From IMG/VR virus record IMGVR_UViG_3300038701_000386, positions 1 to 46,187 of that record: a stretch of DNA of 46,187 nt; one strand, given 5' to 3'. Source of the stretch: a virus. The notes below the pieces were generated by a model. That model was not told the DNA's origin. It did not search any database and saw only the letters and a program-made list of their open reading frames with translations. The translations under genes and the position numbers were made by a program. Position 1 is the stretch's first letter. Each line of letters begins with the position of its first letter. Shown here piece by piece: positions 4,026-45,294 of the stretch.

Positions 4026-5735
4026 ATGCAGACAGTAGAGATCAATGGATTCGAGATTGATATATTCAATCAACATAAGCTTGAAGAGGGAAAGAAACAA
4101 GGTATATGTCCTTTATGTTCTCACGATAGAAAACCCAAAAATCAAAAAGCAAAATGTGCTTCTTATGATTGGGAACGTGGTCTCGGTACTTGTCATAATT
4201 GTAATAACAGCTTTCAACTACATACTTATAAACGTAAAGGTAATGCGGATAAAGTATATGTTAAACCAGAACCTGTGCAAATTGTGCAACCTGGAACAAA
4301 AGTTGAAGAGTGGTTTAAAACAAGAGGTATTTCCAAACAGACTCTTAGTGATTTAAAGATCACTGAGGGTCCTGAATGGATGCCCCAGACCGGTAAAACC
4401 GAGAACGTAATAAAGTTTAATTATTTTGTAGGAGGAGAGTTGACTAATGTAAAGTATAGAGATGGCAGAAAAAACTTTAAACTTTATAAAGGTGCTGAAA
4501 AAGTATTTTATAATATTGATAGCATTGTAGGTTATGAATATTGTGTTATAGTTGAAGGCGAAATGGATGTGTTGGCGCTACACGAAGCAGGTATAACTAA
4601 TTCAATATCAGTACCTAACGGAGCTACATTAAACTCTAACAACTTAGATTATTTAGATAACTGTATAGATTATTTTGAAGACAAAGAAAAAATAATACTA
4701 GCGGTTGATTCAGATGAAGCAGGTCAAGCTTTACAAGCTGAATTAATTAGAAGATTAGGGTCTGAAATTTGTTATGTTGCAACATTTGATGATTGTAAAG
4801 ACGCTAATGAATACTTATTAAAACACGGTAAAGAAAAATTAATAAACAGGATAACTAGTGCAAAACCTGTTCCTTTGGAGAACGTAACGACATTTAAAGA
4901 TATCGAAGATGAAATTACTGACTTTGTAAGAAATGGCTTTAAACCTGGTTTTCAAGTTGGTTTACCAAACTTTGATGAAATATTTTCAACATATACAGGA
5001 CAATTTATAACTGTAACAGGTATACCAAGTTCTGGTAAATCTGATTTTGTAGATCAAATGATTGTAGGTTACAACCAAAACTATGGTTGGAAAACAGCTT
5101 TTGCATCTCCTGAAAACGTGCCTACTTATTTACATGCTCATAAACTAATGCGTAAAGTATGGCAAGGTATGCCAAGTAAAGAAGATATTGGTAACGATAG
5201 ATGGAACCAAGTAGCTGAGCATTGCAACACTAACTTCTTTCATATTGATATGGAACGTTATACTTTAGATTCTGTATTGCGTAAAGCTGCAGAGCTAGTC
5301 AAACGTAAAGGTATTAAATGTTTAGTTATAGATCCTTTTAATAAAGTTAGAGACGTAGACTCAAAGACTGAGGATGTTAACAGATATACTATGGAATATC
5401 TGCAGAAAATTGAGATATTCGCAAAAAAGTATGATGTATTAGTATTCATAGTAGCTCACCCAACTAAAATGTATAAAGACAAAGATGGTAAAATTGAAGA
5501 ACCAACTATGTATAACATTAAAGGCGGTGGTGAATGGTACGATGCATCTTATCACGGTTTATTAGTTCATAGAGATTATGAAGCTAAAACAGTTAAAGCT
5601 AAAGTTTTAAAAGTTAAGTTTCAAAACTTAGGAGAGAATGGTGCTGAAGCTCATTTTAAATGGGAACCTAAATCAGGTTGTTTTATTCCGCACGAACCTA
5701 TAAATATAAGCAATGAAAAAATGCCTTGGGAATAA
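4026..5735 (+). CDS. DNA primase-helicase, T7 gp4-like
   Basis: This 569-aa bifunctional replication protein has, in order: a zinc-binding primase module (C28, C31, C56 and C59); a TOPRIM core with E177 (in VEGEMD) and D228/D230 (in AVDSD); and a RecA-like hexameric helicase with Walker A GIPSSGKS (K338, S339), Walker B around D436 (CLVIDPFNK) and the sensor-like IVAHPTK at 475-481. T7 gp4 (566 aa) has the same architecture and length. It would unwind DNA and make RNA primers for a polymerase that is not visible in this window. No frameshift or intein is seen. Confidence 0.95.
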   Translation: MQTVEINGFEIDIFNQHKLEEGKKQGICPLCSHDRKPKNQKAKCASYDWERGLGTCHNCNNSFQLHTYKRKGNADKVYVKPEPVQIVQPGTKVEEWFKTRGISKQTLSDLKITEGPEWMPQTGKTENVIKFNYFVGGELTNVKYRDGRKNFKLYKGAEKVFYNIDSIVGYEYCVIVEGEMDVLALHEAGITNSISVPNGATLNSNNLDYLDNCIDYFEDKEKIILAVDSDEAGQALQAELIRRLGSEICYVATFDDCKDANEYLLKHGKEKLINRITSAKPVPLENVTTFKDIEDEITDFVRNGFKPGFQVGLPNFDEIFSTYTGQFITVTGIPSSGKSDFVDQMIVGYNQNYGWKTAFASPENVPTYLHAHKLMRKVWQGMPSKEDIGNDRWNQVAEHCNTNFFHIDMERYTLDSVLRKAAELVKRKGIKCLVIDPFNKVRDVDSKTEDVNRYTMEYLQKIEIFAKKYDVLVFIVAHPTKMYKDKDGKIEEPTMYNIKGGGEWYDASYHGLLVHRDYEAKTVKAKVLKVKFQNLGENGAEAHFKWEPKSGCFIPHEPINISNEKMPWE

Positions 5736-31120: not shown

Positions 31121-32542
31121 TTATGCTGAAATCTTTTTCAACAATACAAAGTTATTAGCTCCTTGTACACATAAACATCTTTCTGATAAGAAGTGAACGT
31201 TCATTGCGTCTTCGTCGCTTGTGTAGTTTCCACCAACAGATCCAGTAATCCAAGATTTCATTTTTCTGTCGTCAGCTTCAGAAGCTCTATAACGTACGTG
31301 TAAAAATGGTCTTGAAATGTTCTTACCTAATTGTTGATCATAAACCGTAGAAGTTCCTGCTGGTACAATAACACCTTCAACATCTCCTACTAATCCACGA
31401 GTAGTAGCGTCGTTTAAGTATTTCCAGTCAGTTTTATAGAAGTCATAAGAACCTCTTCTGAATCCAGAGAAACCTAAATTTAAAGCCATATCCTCAGAGT
31501 TGTCAAATACTCCATAAGAAGTACCTCCAGCACCATAAGAATTTTGAGCTGCTAACATATTATCAATACCTAAAGCAGAAGCTCTATCTAAGAACATCAT
31601 GTTTTCTTCAATAGCTCCTTGCTTATCTAATTCTTGTAAGATTAAATCAAAGTCAGCTAAACCGTCAGTTCCACCAAAATCAGCATCAGAATATACTAAA
31701 CCTCTGTTTTCTAAAGCTGAGAATAACCCATCAGATCCAGTAATTTCAGATCCACCGCCTAATCCAGCTGCTGGAGTAATTGGAGAAGCTGCTTTTTCTG
31801 CTTCGATCATAGTCATTTCTAATTGATCTTCAAAACGAATTCTTGCTTCGTGCTCAGATTTTAAATACCATAAGTATCCAGAAGTTCCAGCTTCAGTAGT
31901 TACTTCAACCCAACCAATTTGAGCAGTATCAGAACCGTTTACATTGTATTTATCTCTTAAGATAATTGGTTTGTTACTAAATTGCTCAAAAGCAGCGTCT
32001 ACTGATGTACCTGCGTTAGAAGTTCCTTTAGCATACTCAGAACCGTATACAAATACTTTTACATTACCAGTTCCTGTAACAGTAATATCTCCAGCGTAAC
32101 CAGCGATTGTTAATGTTGCAACACCTGCGTCAACAGATACAGCGCTAACATATGCTTTTTCAACAGTTAAACCAGTAGAATCAGCAATAACAATTGTAGC
32201 TCCAGGACCAATAAGGTTTTTAGAAGCTCCAGATACAGCTGGAATAGTGATAGAAGTTGCAGATACAACAGTTACATCGTCATAAGCAATGTGTAATCTT
32301 CCTTGTTCAGACCATACAACTTGATCAGAAGCCATTGGCATTTCTGCTCCCACCATACGTAAAAATCCTGAGATTGTTCTGTTTCCATAACGCTCTACTT
32401 CTTTTTCGTATACTTCTGGTAAGAATTGTTGTGTAAAATCTAATTGAGATAATGATAAATAGTTATCATTAAATAGTGTTTGTGTAGGACGTGGAGTTAA
32501 ATGATCTAATGCTCCTGCACTTCCTGTAAATGAACCTGCCAT
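31121..32542 (-). CDS. major capsid protein
   Basis: This 473-aa protein is the best match for a major capsid protein of HK97 fold. Its N-terminus (LTPRPTQTLFNDNYLSL) and the block FGNR-like YGNRTISGFLRMVGAE, then SDQVVWSEQGRLH (50-83), look like crAss-type capsid proteins. Residues about 88-168 form an Ala/Thr/Val-rich beta insert. The coding sequence has an unusually even, more G/C-containing codon use than its neighbours, as expected for an abundant protein. It follows a scaffold-like gene and the portal. The assignment rests on composition, context and remembered sequence style. Confidence 0.85.
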   Translation of the reverse strand: MAGSFTGSAGALDHLTPRPTQTLFNDNYLSLSQLDFTQQFLPEVYEKEVERYGNRTISGFLRMVGAEMPMASDQVVWSEQGRLHIAYDDVTVVSATSITIPAVSGASKNLIGPGATIVIADSTGLTVEKAYVSAVSVDAGVATLTIAGYAGDITVTGTGNVKVFVYGSEYAKGTSNAGTSVDAAFEQFSNKPIILRDKYNVNGSDTAQIGWVEVTTEAGTSGYLWYLKSEHEARIRFEDQLEMTMIEAEKAASPITPAAGLGGGSEITGSDGLFSALENRGLVYSDADFGGTDGLADFDLILQELDKQGAIEENMMFLDRASALGIDNMLAAQNSYGAGGTSYGVFDNSEDMALNLGFSGFRRGSYDFYKTDWKYLNDATTRGLVGDVEGVIVPAGTSTVYDQQLGKNISRPFLHVRYRASEADDRKMKSWITGSVGGNYTSDEDAMNVHFLSERCLCVQGANNFVLLKKISA

Positions 32543-36253: not shown

Positions 36254-38467
36254 TTAATTTTCTATTATTTTTGAAAACACACCAGAATTAGTATATTTTG
36301 ATATTTTTAAATTTATTTTATTTTTTTGCACATTTGCTTTTGGATAATACTTGTGTCTATTGCAAGCCATTATAGCTAACCCAGAACTTATAGCGGCATC
36401 AAACTTGGTTCTATTGTTAATGTCAAAACCAGCCCAGTCATTTAAAGTTCTATTAAAATACATAGTACCATAAGTATTATCTTCCAGTAACCCCACGTGT
36501 TTGTCTATATAGCTTTCAATAGCTGCAGCGTGAGCTTGCTTTATATCTTCACTTGAGTTAGGCATACCACCTATTTCTTTTTCGGTAACCGATAATTTAT
36601 TCCAAATACGGTCAGGTCTATTCATTGAATATCCCCTATAGCCTCTTCTTTTAAAATAATATAATAATCTAGGTTTATTATTTTCAGCTAATAAAGGCAT
36701 TCCGTAAAAAACACAAGCCATTAAAACATCTTCAAAAAACATATCCGCTGTTTGCGGTCTAGCTATGTATTCTAAAAAGAATGTATTAGCAGGAGCATCT
36801 TCCATACTAAATTTAGTTAGTCCGTGTAAAGCCCCTTTAGATCCTCTACCACCTACAGTACCTGATATATCGTAACTATCGCATCCAAAAGCACCCATAT
36901 GTTCGTTACCTGGGTATTTTATACCATTTTTTATTATTTGCCTATTTTGTAAAGCAGCATTAGGTACCCAAGATATTTTAAATCTACCATTAGGATTTGG
37001 AGTAAAGACTACCTTAGAATCTTTAATGCCATTAACCCATTGAAAGTTACCAGTTGTAATTACATTTGAATTACTAAGATCTTCATTGTAGTCTATTTGC
37101 TCATATATCTTAGCTAAATTAAATATACTATTTTTAGCTTCGTCTCTAAAAGCGTGTTCTTCTGTTCTTGGAAATTGTCGATAATATTCGTTTAAAGCGT
37201 CCTGGTCACCTTTTAATCCATCAGCTTCATTTTCCCAATGCTCTATAACTCCAACCTCTATAGGATCTCCTAATGGATCTAAAACTTCACTTTTAGGTGT
37301 ATTAAACACAGGATGTCCATATTCATCTATAAATCCTTCATAATTCCATTCCATTGGAATAAACAAAGAATATAAACCAGAAGCTGTTTGACCATTTCTG
37401 TTTCTTTTTGTAACATCAGAGTTTACATATAATTTTTTAAAATTTCCTCCTCCTTTATCTAAAGCGTTTGACGTAGAACCCATCATACACTTTCCAATAA
37501 TTCTAGAACCTAATCTTAAACAAGTTTTTGTAACCCTCCAGTTATTTAATATATTATCAGGTCTTTCCCATTTACCGCTTTCATCATGAACTAATAATTT
37601 TAGTTTTTCACCATCATATGAGTTATCCCCTGTATTCTTCCAGTCAATAGTTGTATCTAAACCTTCTAGAACCTCTAGTTTTTCTTTATTTTGTATAGAT
37701 TTTCTAGTTAGTCTAGAAGCTGGTACTCTATAAGCTAATTCTGTTTTTGGTCTATCCATACCATCTTGTATGGGTTTAAAGAAAAAAGGATAGTTAACTG
37801 ATATTGGCACTACCTTGTCAGTAAACATCTTTTTAGCATCACTACCAGACTTAGACAGTATACCAAATCTAGCATCTGAACTAATAGTCGCTTGATTAAC
37901 AGTTTCTCCTGAAGCCATAAAACTAAATCCAGAACGTCTATTTTTTAAATAGCACATTCCATAACATCTGTTATCTGCTTTACAAGCTTCCCAAAATATA
38001 AAAAACAATCTATTTGCTTCACGAAAATCAGGTCTACCTACATCTATCTTAGACCATTGAAGATACATGTAATGAGTACCTGTTAAATATGTTGGCTTAT
38101 TTTTGTTATAAAACCAATAACCTTCTTCCCTTCTTTTAAATTCTTCATCAATATACGGCTCCCATTTTTCTTGAAATTTCTCAGGGAGTTCTCTCCAATC
38201 AAAAATACTAGAAATAGCTTTAAGTTCTTTTGGATACTCTGCTGGTTTCCATTTATTTATGCTTTTATCAATTTTAGTAGGCTCTTTCGGTAAAGCTATT
38301 TTTAAATTTTGTATATTATAAATTTCACCAATTTGACCCGTCTTGCTAATTACAACTACGTCATGCTCCTTATTATAGCCGTACTTCCATTTTTTACCTC
38401 TATTTAGTCTAGAGATGGTTGTATGCTTTATTGGTGTTATAACACTATATAATGATTGCTCGTACAT
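36254..38467 (-). CDS. terL: terminase large subunit
   Basis: This 737-aa packaging motor has an atypical Walker A-like segment at about 175-183 (KNRRSGFSF, without the usual GKS/T ending), a clear Walker B with D295 and E296 (KLLVHDESGKW), and a C-terminal RNase H-like nuclease starting at D530 (MGAFGCDSYDISG), with other acidic ligands further on. The unusual length and these motifs are like crAss-type terminases. It cuts concatemers and drives DNA into the head. It overlaps the upstream small gene by TAATG, which supports that gene being the small subunit. Confidence 0.9.
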   Translation of the reverse strand: MYEQSLYSVITPIKHTTISRLNRGKKWKYGYNKEHDVVVISKTGQIGEIYNIQNLKIALPKEPTKIDKSINKWKPAEYPKELKAISSIFDWRELPEKFQEKWEPYIDEEFKRREEGYWFYNKNKPTYLTGTHYMYLQWSKIDVGRPDFREANRLFFIFWEACKADNRCYGMCYLKNRRSGFSFMASGETVNQATISSDARFGILSKSGSDAKKMFTDKVVPISVNYPFFFKPIQDGMDRPKTELAYRVPASRLTRKSIQNKEKLEVLEGLDTTIDWKNTGDNSYDGEKLKLLVHDESGKWERPDNILNNWRVTKTCLRLGSRIIGKCMMGSTSNALDKGGGNFKKLYVNSDVTKRNRNGQTASGLYSLFIPMEWNYEGFIDEYGHPVFNTPKSEVLDPLGDPIEVGVIEHWENEADGLKGDQDALNEYYRQFPRTEEHAFRDEAKNSIFNLAKIYEQIDYNEDLSNSNVITTGNFQWVNGIKDSKVVFTPNPNGRFKISWVPNAALQNRQIIKNGIKYPGNEHMGAFGCDSYDISGTVGGRGSKGALHGLTKFSMEDAPANTFFLEYIARPQTADMFFEDVLMACVFYGMPLLAENNKPRLLYYFKRRGYRGYSMNRPDRIWNKLSVTEKEIGGMPNSSEDIKQAHAAAIESYIDKHVGLLEDNTYGTMYFNRTLNDWAGFDINNRTKFDAAISSGLAIMACNRHKYYPKANVQKNKINLKISKYTNSGVFSKIIEN

Positions 38468-38742
38468 TATCTAGATCTTTTTTCAGCAAAACCTTTAACT
38501 GTTTTTGTCACAACAGTATCTTTAGGTTTATCATCTAAAGCATTTTGCTCATCATTTATTCTATTTAATATTTCAAAAGCGTCAAATATTGCTAATTTTT
38601 TAGTTGCTGCTGCATTTTTTAATCTATCAGCAGATATATCGTCATCTGAATCAACAATAGCTTCTTTAGCTACTTTTATTAATTCTTCTACAGCTTTATG
38701 TCCAGCTTGGATTATATTCTTTTTCGTTTCCTTGATATTCAT
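38467..38742 (-). CDS. possible terminase small subunit
   Basis: This 91-aa helical protein begins MNIKETKKNIIQAGHKAVEE and has an acidic DSDDDISAD segment, then RLKNAAATKKLAIFDAFEIL. It is the gene immediately before the large terminase and is coupled to it by TAATG. A small terminase that recognises phage DNA would be expected here, but the protein is short and has no visible helix-turn-helix, so the call rests mainly on position. It overlaps the double-GroES-like gene by 47 bases. Confidence 0.5.
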   Translation of the reverse strand: MNIKETKKNIIQAGHKAVEELIKVAKEAIVDSDDDISADRLKNAAATKKLAIFDAFEILNRINDEQNALDDKPKDTVVTKTVKGFAEKRSR

Positions 38743-39289
38743 ATTTAATTGTAATTGATTTGGTAGGAACTCTATACAACCTGTCTTTGTTTATAATAAA
38801 TTCATATTCTGCTCCAGGTTTAAAGCCAACTAAAGATCCGGTTTCTAAGAAATCTAATTCAGGATCTTTATATACTAAAACACCGATACCTTCTTTTTCA
38901 AAATTATTAGAAAACATATTATTTTCAGCTAATGGTTTTATAAAGTTAAAACCTTTACAAGCTTTAAATGTATCATTATTTTTTCGGTATCCAAATACTT
39001 GATCTAAGCTAACGAAATAAGTATCTTCGTTGTAATAGCTTCTACTATTCTTTTCATTGCCTCTAATGTCTTTAAAACGTCTAAAAACATTATGATGAAC
39101 TATAATCTCATCTCCAACTTTTATTTCTGTATCTATTTCTAAAGGTACAGCTAAAACTTTTGCAATTCTATTAGAATAATTATGATTATGAAGTTCTGTG
39201 TTTAATATTAATTCAGAACCATTTATGTTTTTTTTATTTGTATATCTATTACCTAATGGTTTTACTATAAAATTATATAAAGCTTTCAT
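38696..39289 (-). CDS. tandem double-GroES-like (Cpn10) protein
   Basis: This 197-aa protein seems to hold two Cpn10 domains. In domain A (1-101), FIVKPLG matches the first GroES strand, a loop with SELIL (25-29) matches the mobile loop that ends with a hydrophobic triplet, RIAKVLAVP matches the 'GEVLAVG' strand, IKVGDEIIVHH (56-66) matches 'VKVGDIVIF', and YFVSLDQVFGY matches the last strand. Domain B (112-184) repeats the order: NFIKPL, GIGVLVY, FKPGAEYEFI and YRVPTKSITIKY, with a shorter loop lacking the GGI-type motif. It lies in the packaging operon, not beside GroEL. It may be a co-chaperonin or a structural adaptor of similar fold. Confidence 0.65.
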   Translation of the reverse strand: MKALYNFIVKPLGNRYTNKKNINGSELILNTELHNHNYSNRIAKVLAVPLEIDTEIKVGDEIIVHHNVFRRFKDIRGNEKNSRSYYNEDTYFVSLDQVFGYRKNNDTFKACKGFNFIKPLAENNMFSNNFEKEGIGVLVYKDPELDFLETGSLVGFKPGAEYEFIINKDRLYRVPTKSITIKYEYQGNEKEYNPSWT

Positions 39290-42666: not shown

Positions 42667-43047
42667 TTATTGTTTATTATAAGCTTCACGCTCCCATTCG
42701 AAGTTACCTCCTTCTTGAGCGACTCTACCCGTTTGTTTATCTATTAATTGCCCGTTTATTCTTTGATATACTCTAGCTGGCGATTTTGTATCTTTTTTCC
42801 AAGTTACTGTATTGTCATCATAATGAAGTCTACCTTGAGCCATTTGCTCTAAGTGCACTTTTTCATGGTTAACCGCTGTTTCTTTATCTTTCCCTTTTAA
42901 AGATTTATCTATAAATATAGTGCCATCATTATTGGCCTCTCCTAATATACCACCTTCTAAGTTTTTCTTAAAAACAGGTGTGTTATAAGTAGAAGTTTCT
43001 TTATCAATGCCTACTAGTTCTGTAAAATCTTTTAATTTAAAACCCAT
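42667..43047 (-). CDS. small zincin-type metallopeptidase-like protein
   Basis: This 126-aa protein carries an HEKVH motif (H61, E62 and H65), with NHEKVHLEQM giving the helix and a WEREAY helix (E119 or E121) as a possible third ligand. Such small zincins are frequent in Bacteroidetes prophages and phages, and their substrate is unknown. The central part is polar (DTKSPARVYQR). It lies between the winged-helix-like gene and the basic proteins and is coupled by TAATG to the former. It may process a virion protein or be a lysis accessory. Confidence 0.68.
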   Translation of the reverse strand: MGFKLKDFTELVGIDKETSTYNTPVFKKNLEGGILGEANNDGTIFIDKSLKGKDKETAVNHEKVHLEQMAQGRLHYDDNTVTWKKDTKSPARVYQRINGQLIDKQTGRVAQEGGNFEWEREAYNKQ

Positions 43048-43487
43048 TATCTTTCTTTGTCTTTAATCATATCGTCAATAGCTTTATTAAAAACTTTATC
43101 CGTATATGTTTTATTATTGTAAAATACACTTCTTTCTGAAGTTGGTAAATCCTCTTCTGCTAGCAGTATTCTATAAATTCTATTTATTAATAACTTGCAT
43201 TTTTGAGAAACCTTATAAACAGCATATTTAGAAGATGTTCTATTTCTTTCTTTAAATACGTCAATCCAGCCTTCTTTTCTTAATCTAGTCCATCTATCTT
43301 TGTCCCAGCTATAAGTGTATGTCCCATTTTTAAACTCATTTCTTGTAAAAAACTCTTTACAATCAAGATAAATTAACAACTCAAGATCAGCGTCTCTTAA
43401 ATTATAAGTCTTACAAGCCCATCTTCTGACGAGCCTGTAATACTTAAATAAATTTATATCTTTAAGATCTTTTGGCGTTAGTCTCAT
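43047..43487 (-). CDS. putative winged-helix DNA-binding protein
   Basis: This 146-aa protein has a helical N-terminus (YYRLVRRWACKTYNLRDADL), then a segment that looks like a winged-helix fold (about 33-100: LELLIYLDCKEFFTRNEF, WTRLRKEGWIDVFKERNR, and TSSKYAVYKVSQKCKLLINR). This resembles MarR-like proteins but is not a confident match. It overlaps the GroES gene by four bases and is coupled to the zincin gene. It may regulate late transcription or the chaperonin genes; position is the only support. Confidence 0.55.
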   Translation of the reverse strand: MRLTPKDLKDINLFKYYRLVRRWACKTYNLRDADLELLIYLDCKEFFTRNEFKNGTYTYSWDKDRWTRLRKEGWIDVFKERNRTSSKYAVYKVSQKCKLLINRIYRILLAEEDLPTSERSVFYNNKTYTDKVFNKAIDDMIKDKER

Positions 43488-43741
43488 TCAACTATAACTA
43501 TATCTCCTGCGTTTATAACGTGATAAAAATTATCATTCCATTCAATGCCGTGGCCTGCATGCTTATCATATCTTATAAAATCTCCTTCTTTAACACCAAC
43601 CACTTTATCCCCTGCGCTTATAACTTTAGCTCTTAAGTACCTAATGTCGCTATCTTGCTTTTCTGTCATCTCAATACCGCCAACAACTTTAGGAGCTTCT
43701 TTAATCTTTTCTATTACTAAATAATAATTAATTGCTTTCAT
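43484..43741 (-). CDS. groES: co-chaperonin GroES (phage Cpn10)
   Basis: This 85-aa Cpn10 protein forms the GroES beta barrel: NYYLVIEKI is the first strand and YLRAKVISAG the next, GVKEGDFIRYDKHAGHGIEW gives the roof and turn, and NAGDIVIVE is the last strand. The mobile loop (about 15-34) holds G21-G22-I23-E24-M25, where GroES has a GGIVL contact triplet for GroEL, so the loop looks usable but has a Glu in its centre. It directly follows GroEL with a TAATG coupling, giving the order groEL-groES, the reverse of bacterial operons. Confidence 0.9.
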   Translation of the reverse strand: MKAINYYLVIEKIKEAPKVVGGIEMTEKQDSDIRYLRAKVISAGDKVVGVKEGDFIRYDKHAGHGIEWNDNFYHVINAGDIVIVE

Positions 43742-45294
43742 TATGCTAATCTTTTATTACTTATTACACAATCTGCAGATATAATAGTTGTAACAACACT
43801 CACTGCATTTTTAAGAGCTGACTTAGTAACTAAAACAGGATCTATAATACCAGCTTTTATCATATTTACTTCTTTGCCTGACTTAACATCTATACCTCTG
43901 TTTCTAGAGCTAGGCTTTTTGATTTCAACAATACCAGCATTATCTAATATCTTATAATAAGGTGCTTTGATAGATTCAAAAAGTATTTCTTCTCCTTTAT
44001 TCTTTGGTTTTAAGCTAGTAGCTGCATTTAATAAAGCGATACCACCACCTGCAACAATACCTTCTTGGTAAGCTGCTTTAGTAGCATAAATAGCGTCTTC
44101 TACCCTATCCTTCTTTTCTTTTAGTTCAACCTTAGAATCTGCTCCTACATAAATAATACCAACTTTTCCTGTTAGCATAGATAATCTTTGTTCTAACTTT
44201 TTCTTAAAAAACGGGTTGTTTTCGTTTTCTAATTTTTTAGTAACATCAGCAACTCTTTCTGATACATCTATATCCTCTATAGTTTGTAAAACTGTTGTCT
44301 TTTCGTCTGTTACTGCTTTTTTAGCAAAACCTAAAACTTCAGGGCTAATCAAGTCTAAATCATCACCTAATTCTTCGTTTATTATTGTAGCTCCTGTAAG
44401 TAAAGCTAAATCTTCTAAAGTTTCTTGTCTTGTAGGGCCAAAACCAGGTGTATCTACTATATTTACTTTTATATTACCTTTAACTTTATTTGATAATAAG
44501 GTTGCAAATGGCTGTTGTTCTACAGAAGCAACTATTAAAAGACTTTTTTTGCTCTTTATAACGTGTTCTAAGACACTTTGTATTTTTCTTATATTAGGAA
44601 TAGGTGAAGATACAATAAGTACGTAAGGATAGTCTAAAACAGCCGTGTGCTTGTCTTTGTCTGTTACTAAATGCGGAGATTTTAATCCGCTGTCAAATTG
44701 TACTCCTTCTACAAAATCAACATAAGTTTCATTTGTATCAGATTCTTCCATTAATACGACTCCATTCTTACCTACTTTTTCGTAAGCTTCGCCAATCTTT
44801 TCACCTAATTCTTTATCGTTATTGCAACTAATAGTAGCTACATTTTTTAACATTTCTCCTTTTACATCTACCTTTGATAGATTTAAATATTTTTTTACTT
44901 TTTCAGAACCGCTAATAATACCGGCTTTTAAGGATCTTAATTTTTCATCTCCAGCTTTTTCATTTACAGTTTTTAACAAAGAATGCGCTAATACTGTAGA
45001 AGTTGTTGTTCCGTCACCTGCTTCTTTCACTGTATTTCTTGCTGCTTCTTTAATTAGCGTTGCTCCAATGTTTTCTACCGGATGTAATAAGACTACGCTT
45101 TCTGCAACGGTTACTCCGTCTTTTGTTATCACCGGCTTTCCTGTAGCGTCTTCATAAATAACGCATTTTCCAGAGGCTCCTAATGTAGAGCTAACTGCGT
45201 TTGCTAATTTTTCAACGCCTTTTATTATTTGATCATTAGCTTCGTTTCCGAAAGTAAGTGTTTTTACTATTTCACTCGGGTTGTTAAATTCCAT
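43741..45294 (-). CDS. groEL: chaperonin GroEL (phage-encoded)
   Basis: This complete 517-aa chaperonin keeps the ATP site: TKDGVTVA with D59, GDGTTT with D94, and the VEDAIYATKA block with D400, followed by QEGIVAGGG. These match E. coli D52, D87 and D398. The apical domain is recognisable (EGVQFDSG, then APGF-like DTPGFGPTR), but the GroES/substrate groove differs: the region of E. coli Y199-Y203-F204 reads L-K-S-P-H-L. The C-terminus ends without the Gly-Gly-Met tail. It is expressed first in this gene group, before its own GroES, and is likely to fold capsid or tail proteins. Confidence 0.95.
   Translation of the reverse strand: MEFNNPSEIVKTLTFGNEANDQIIKGVEKLANAVSSTLGASGKCVIYEDATGKPVITKDGVTVAESVVLLHPVENIGATLIKEAARNTVKEAGDGTTTSTVLAHSLLKTVNEKAGDEKLRSLKAGIISGSEKVKKYLNLSKVDVKGEMLKNVATISCNNDKELGEKIGEAYEKVGKNGVVLMEESDTNETYVDFVEGVQFDSGLKSPHLVTDKDKHTAVLDYPYVLIVSSPIPNIRKIQSVLEHVIKSKKSLLIVASVEQQPFATLLSNKVKGNIKVNIVDTPGFGPTRQETLEDLALLTGATIINEELGDDLDLISPEVLGFAKKAVTDEKTTVLQTIEDIDVSERVADVTKKLENENNPFFKKKLEQRLSMLTGKVGIIYVGADSKVELKEKKDRVEDAIYATKAAYQEGIVAGGGIALLNAATSLKPKNKGEEILFESIKAPYYKILDNAGIVEIKKPSSRNRGIDVKSGKEVNMIKAGIIDPVLVTKSALKNAVSVVTTIISADCVISNKRLA

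Follow-up and report, generated by a model that had tools for sequence, protein, structure and literature searches.

The best-known natural single-ring chaperonin that works with a lid is the mitochondrial one. In phages, GroEL has been noted in 36 marine genomes of the group related to phi38:1 (PMC5332604), and both GroEL and GroES have already been mentioned for Maribacter phage Panino (PMC11590407). Our literature search found no characterisation of the GroEL-GroES of Elemovirus and no description of the biochemistry of any linked phage pair; this search did not reach the virioplankton survey Marine 2017. For the canonical double ring, R452 and E461 together with K105 and A109 form the inter-ring loci of GroEL (PMC7174398), and mutating the set 452/461/463/464 yields the single-ring GroEL-SR (PMC5575113).

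Here we analyse a groEL-groES pair on a 46-kb IMG/VR virus contig, the entire stretch of which we refer to as the window. From the sequences we propose, with a probability of roughly 0.62, that the pair is an active chaperonin and co-chaperonin that would serve the phage as a folding machine of its own, distinct from the host GroEL-GroES and probably single-ring.

Results

A reversed groEL-groES pair is the rule in this phage lineage

The phage behind the window is uncultured and is related to phages of marine and freshwater flavobacteria. Because related contigs reach 59-68 kb, the window contig is probably a fragment of a larger genome. On the minus strand, the gene for a 517-aa group I chaperonin (groEL, 43741-45294; Pfam PF00118, phrog_5725 and AlphaFold2 model) is followed by that for an 85-aa co-chaperonin (groES, 43484-43741; Pfam PF00166, PHROGs and AlphaFold2 model). 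As an earlier note on this DNA had reported, the order is groEL then groES and the genes meet in a TAATG junction, where the groEL stop codon TAA and the groES ATG overlap by one base. Bacteria arrange the genes the other way round, with groES first in 74 of the 75 loci that have groES among the best 80 bacterial genome loci.

The same note considered it unusual for a phage to carry both genes in one operon in this order. A search of IMG/VR with the window GroEL returned at least 597 relatives, and in all of the best 80, which are 68-98% identical and were examined individually, groES lies directly 3' of groEL. In the MW202828 clade, 78 of 80 loci have groES immediately after groEL or at most a few kb further on, and all 13 elemovirus loci whose sequence extends far enough have it immediately after. 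The same order occurs in MW202828 itself, in Panino and in hundreds of IMG/VR contigs; Elemovirus genomes annotate the pair with identical order and overlap, and 68 Flavobacterium records match. Given this recurrence across loci and isolates, the description as unusual needs correction; within this lineage, whose phages are related to those of flavobacteria, having the pair is the rule. Exceptions in order are Cellulophaga phi40:1 and Flavobacterium immuto, where groES comes first. The groES start codon is TTG at loci L064, L067, L068, L069 and L071.

Some records of these relatives carry annotation or sequence irregularities. In Panino (L265), the protein encoded at 4721-4987 is annotated as hypothetical and is actually the GroES partner of Panino GroEL (profile E 9.1e-17); the GroES annotated in that record is the Cpn10-like protein on the terminase side. 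In contig G044 (L304), the GroEL match falls into two overlapping pieces on the same strand (36821-37651 and 37580-38275), possibly because of a frameshift or insertion.

Genomic context

The pair had also been placed in a late arm. This appears to be a fair label, because its strand carries structural and packaging genes, with genes for lysis, tail, head, portal and terminase functions, and replication and nucleotide genes (primase-helicase, ribonucleotide reductase and thymidylate synthase) lie on the opposite strand. Specifically, the minus strand also encodes a peptidase/endolysin, a crAss muzzle-like protein, head proteins including one of 473 aa and about 51 kDa (31121-32542; phrog_13704 virion structural protein, E 7.5e-99), a portal protein and the terminase large subunit (36254-38467; phrog_6681, E 2.7e-174). 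The last marks the packaging module, and its closest relative is that of MW202828 (63%).

Directly 3' of groES on the same strand is the gene for a conserved 146-aa protein of unknown function (phrog_17028; 43047-43487), which follows groES in 79 of 80 related loci. Next to it, a 126-aa protein (42667-43047, minus strand) has an HEKVH motif and resembles a zinc metallopeptidase, with no match in Pfam or PHROGs; it follows groES in 72 of 80 related loci. A sigma-70 region 2 protein is encoded on the plus strand (1615-2364), so the phage may own a sigma factor, perhaps serving the late strand. Among 44 relatives, the region preceding groEL contained no Flavobacterium-type promoter (TTTG...TAnnTTTG).

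GroEL retains the ATP site and is under purifying selection

The window GroEL matches Pfam Cpn60_TCP1 (PF00118) above cut-off with 167.5 bits over residues 30-514 (model positions 1-489 of 490), and the PHROG GroEL family (phrog_5725) with E 1.7e-135. Its AlphaFold2 model (pLDDT 85.8) includes the equatorial, intermediate and apical domains of group I chaperonins and has a best TM of 0.88 to group I PDB chains (GroEL and mtHsp60); being of one chain, its domain arrangement says nothing on ring number. The protein had been described as a full-length GroEL with all three ATP-site aspartates. The aspartates are as described, with D59, D94 and D400 corresponding to E. coli D52, D87 and D398 and invariant in 80 relatives; as to length, the GGM tail is absent and two equatorial loops are shorter. 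Also retained are K51, GDGTTT (T89-T91) and D495 (E. coli numbering), and the ATP-site entropy in the clade of the window GroEL (hereafter, window clade) is 0.06 bits.

The dN/dS of groEL is about 0.04-0.1 (pairs with dS 0.2-1.5), and that of groES is similar. Because all 80 nearest IMG/VR loci carry the pair at such values, its presence is not due to chance. The intact ATP site and purifying selection bear out the expectation that both genes look functional, and rule out a degenerate or decoy chaperonin.

Host-type contacts between rings are lost

Conservation at the inter-ring positions differs sharply between hosts and phages. With contact positions taken from E. coli GroEL and an alignment that is uncertain by a few residues near 460-464 and 105-109, K105, A109, R452, E461, S463 and V464 are the same or similar in 80, 80, 78, 80, 80 and 80 of 80 hosts, respectively, and in 25, 3, 15, 21, 3 and 11 of 73 distinct window-clade sequences. 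The window GroEL itself is without the host-type contacts K105/A109 and R452/E461/S463/V464. Across the window clade, mean entropy at the six positions is 2.77 bits, compared with 0.64 ± 0.31 at sites matched for conservation in hosts (0 of 10,000 draws), and the entropy result is the same in the MW202828 clade. Conservation is tight, by contrast, at the ATP site, in the core of the lid groove and along the strand connecting neighbouring subunits of one ring. Two equatorial loops of the window GroEL fall short of their E. coli counterparts by 7 and 5 residues; the E434 loop is 7 aa shorter in 80/80 relatives, and the 456-480 segment is shorter in most. In place of the GGM tail, 6 residues extend past E. 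coli position 521, compared with 22-26 in most hosts.

Together, the lost inter-ring contacts and the lost GGM tail predict a single ring. We consider it rather probable that the window GroEL works in this form, and infer from its sequence that it would be independent of a second ring. Could the pair instead be active as a conventional double ring, with other contacts replacing the host salt bridges and the observed changes reflecting fast evolution of a specialised chaperonin? There is precedent, as the chaperonin of phage EL keeps in-register double rings with different contacts and splits only with ATP (PMC5934643, PMC7185714). Elemovirus, of the same lineage, also retains R/K452 in 10 of 11 and K105 in 9 of 11 sequences. 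However, the window-clade interface sites are highly variable (2.2-3.3 bits per site) and have not been re-fixed, a pattern that does not suggest a new conserved interface, and the sequences have also lost the tail and part of two interface loops. We view a conventional double ring as unlikely, while giving it real weight as the main alternative.

The lid and its docking groove are remodelled

GroES matches Pfam Cpn10 (PF00166) with 29.2 bits (cut-off 21.1) and the PHROGs GroES family with E 4e-11. In its AlphaFold2 model (pLDDT 89.7), the protein folds into a Cpn10 barrel whose mobile loop is flexible and which lacks roof strands, and Foldseek searches with this model return Cpn10 structures, with T4 gp31 lower in the list. 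The mobile loop (residues 14-33; 43643-43702, minus strand), identified by alignment, is a low-confidence flexible stretch in the model. The GGI-type loop noted previously reads G21-G22-I23-E24-M25, such that the triplet I-E-M replaces I-V-L, with hydrophobic outer residues and E in the middle. A triplet of the form [LIM]-E-[LIM] is found in 80/80 window-clade GroES proteins (L-E-L type instead of I-I-I). The roof beta-hairpin is absent: in the alignment, residues 44-54 (43580-43612, minus strand) make up an 11-residue segment (11-12 residues in 80/80), whereas E. coli has 20 and most bacteria have 15 or 20, and the model shows strandless coil here. As gp31 also has no roof hairpin, this element is not strictly defining for GroES.

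Changes on the GroEL side face the same contact. In the crystal structure, L234, L237 and V264 of GroEL touch the GroES I-V-L triplet, and N265A blocks GroES binding (PMC3514286). The window GroEL has Q239 at the position of E. coli L234 and S268 at that of V264, and all 80 window-clade sequences have Q at 234, L at 237, A/S/T at 264 and the retained N265. The substrate-binding residues Y199, Y203, F204 and L259 are changed in most window-clade GroELs, and D359/D361/E363 of the host cavity wall are replaced by P, F and K in the window GroEL. In E. coli GroES, V26D is tolerated and I25D and L27D abolish binding (PMC5575113), so an acidic residue in the middle of the loop is compatible with docking. 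A functional single-ring GroEL required a weakened lid interaction (PMC5575113), and the changed groove and loop fit this requirement.

By sequence, then, the lid groove and mobile loop are re-specified, and the two proteins may be private to each other. The groove has not changed in a single fixed way, given that position 234 is E in Panino and in the MW202828 clade. A general rule by which an acidic loop pairs with Q234 does not hold: E234 is accompanied by the loop L-E-I in Panino and by hydrophobic loops in the MW202828 clade. The roofless lid and altered wall likely make for a roomier, less negative chamber suited to particular clients.

A second Cpn10-like protein near the terminase

A further Cpn10-like protein, of 197 aa (38696-39289, minus strand; phrog_13932 "co-chaperonin GroES", E 9.7e-15), is encoded a short distance upstream of the terminase gene, with one small gene between. 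The window protein has no Pfam match, and its Calle_1 homologue passes the PF00166 cut-off. In hhalign comparisons with GroES, its C-terminal half scores 96% (E 3.7e-9), with shuffled controls at 2.3% at most, and its N-terminal half scores 38%. By these profile comparisons, the C-terminal domain is a Cpn10 homologue and the N-terminal half possibly another, so that the protein apparently consists of two Cpn10-like domains. We also considered the two halves as mutual repeats, and rejected this because direct hhalign gives only 3.7%.

The family occurs in 40 of 41 groEL-bearing contigs of at least 40 kb. Conversely, groEL is present in 18 of 25 contigs chosen for the 197-aa protein, several of the remainder being short. 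In elemovirus, Panino and Calle_1, too, a Cpn10-like gene neighbours that for the terminase. As the loop ELILN in the N-terminal part is hydrophobic and host-like, one possibility is a lid for host GroEL; the protein is probably this or an alternative or mixed lid.

The host-like loop would also fit a host-modulating device, in which the phage GroEL, GroES and second Cpn10-like protein would mainly mix or compete with host subunits or lids and turn host GroEL towards phage proteins in the manner of T4 gp31. Both gp31 and CocO of RB49 replace GroES on host GroEL (PMC9598537, PMC6318259). Replacing a lid, however, needs no ATP-competent GroEL that is under purifying selection and always linked to a lid, and the groove (Q234) and lid loop (LEL) diverge from the host partners. 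We find host modulation improbable.

GroEL belongs to an old phage lineage

The earlier note had proposed a phylogeny with host and phage chaperonins. In a tree of 57 sequences, bacterial GroELs form one clade (100/98), which also contains the phage copies of DAC16, LR756501 and Vibrio phages. The window clade (100/100) is phage-only and falls outside the bacterial clade, as do the MW202828 clade, elemovirus and Panino, which join it at only 87/76. The nearest bacterial GroELs are mostly from Flavobacteriaceae and are 42-44% identical, with no host found above 44%; among the 80 best bacterial genome loci, no host GroEL nests with the window clade. The GroEL of an assembly named "Candidatus Rokubacteria" (L197) nests in Flavobacteriales, and this genome is probably contaminated or misnamed.

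The tree supports long-standing phage descent, separate from every bacterial GroEL, and no recent capture; the ATP residues are not disrupted either. Recent acquisition of a host groESL operon with no phage-specific function does have parallels in the GroELs of DAC16 (a Bacteroides phage), LR756501 and Vibrio phages, which do nest in host clades, but host identity of at most 44%, the position in the tree, the reversed gene order and the retention of the pair in 80/80 loci leave it hardly credible here. An active and phage-specific pair is, by contrast, very likely on the features set out above.

Discussion

So, how might such a pair work? In the proposed single-ring machine, the ring would be a single heptamer, or have only weak ring-ring contact. 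ATP would open the apical domains, the phage lid would dock via its L-E-L type loop, and the client would fold inside a roomier, chemically altered cavity. Hydrolysis would then free the lid, with no second ring signalling its release; the altered groove (L234 to Q, V264 to A/S) and loop would supply the moderate lid affinity that this requires. Capsid or tail proteins, which the earlier note had named as clients, are plausible ones; most likely, the clients would be large or abundant phage proteins encoded on the same strand, with the 51-kDa head protein (31121-32542) as one candidate.

A broader version of this proposal is more tentative, and we hold it at slightly less than even odds. A natural single-ring GroEL and the roofless GroES dedicated to it, working orthogonally to the chaperonins of the host, would be joined by a Cpn20-like third part, forming a three-part system in hundreds of phages related to those of flavobacteria.

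If the single-ring reading is correct, a phage pair that kept its lid, lost its ring contacts and rebuilt its lid interface would be a natural counterpart of the laboratory single-ring GroEL. Proteins that are hard to fold could be expressed with the help of such a small and possibly orthogonal chamber, and lid release from a single ring would become testable across a whole family of natural variants.

The closest known parallel is the Elemovirus pair (NC_055853 gp43-gp44), which shares the two genes, their order, the one-base overlap, the 11-residue roof segment and a second Cpn10-like gene beside the terminase. Unlike the window pair, it is on the strand opposite to its neighbours, and its GroEL, 37% identical, keeps L234 and mostly R452 and is paired with the loop L-Y-L. 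Cellulophaga phi38:1 and phi40:1 (Pervagoviridae) likewise have a phage GroEL, a Cpn10 and a Cpn10-like gene before the terminase, but differ in having groES upstream with one gene between, 39% identity, A234 and the loop M-T-F.

The chaperonins of the jumbo phages EL, OBP and AR9 are also phage-encoded; those of OBP and AR9 are single rings and that of EL splits into them (PMC9598537, PMC7185714). They act without a co-chaperonin, whereas the window GroEL always occurs with GroES, and EL is about 26% identical to it. T4 gp31 is similarly a phage lid without roof loops, and its cage is larger, for the 56-kDa capsid protein (PMC6318259), but gp31 uses host GroEL and the shorter window lid (85 aa) is encoded with a phage GroEL.

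Outside phages, mitochondrial Hsp60-Hsp10 functions in single-ring form together with its own lid, and contact between its rings is weak (PMC7174398), as predicted for the window pair from its sequence. It differs in its residual contacts (E105/K109, E462/S464) and coexisting double rings, and is not of phage origin. Chloroplast Cpn20 has two Cpn10-like units per chain (PMC4828840), as the protein at 38696-39289, a candidate co-chaperonin, probably does; in the latter only the C-terminal unit is firmly Cpn10. Set among these systems, the window pair is of a known kind in a poorly studied phage lineage, and its anatomy points to an uncharacterised variant.
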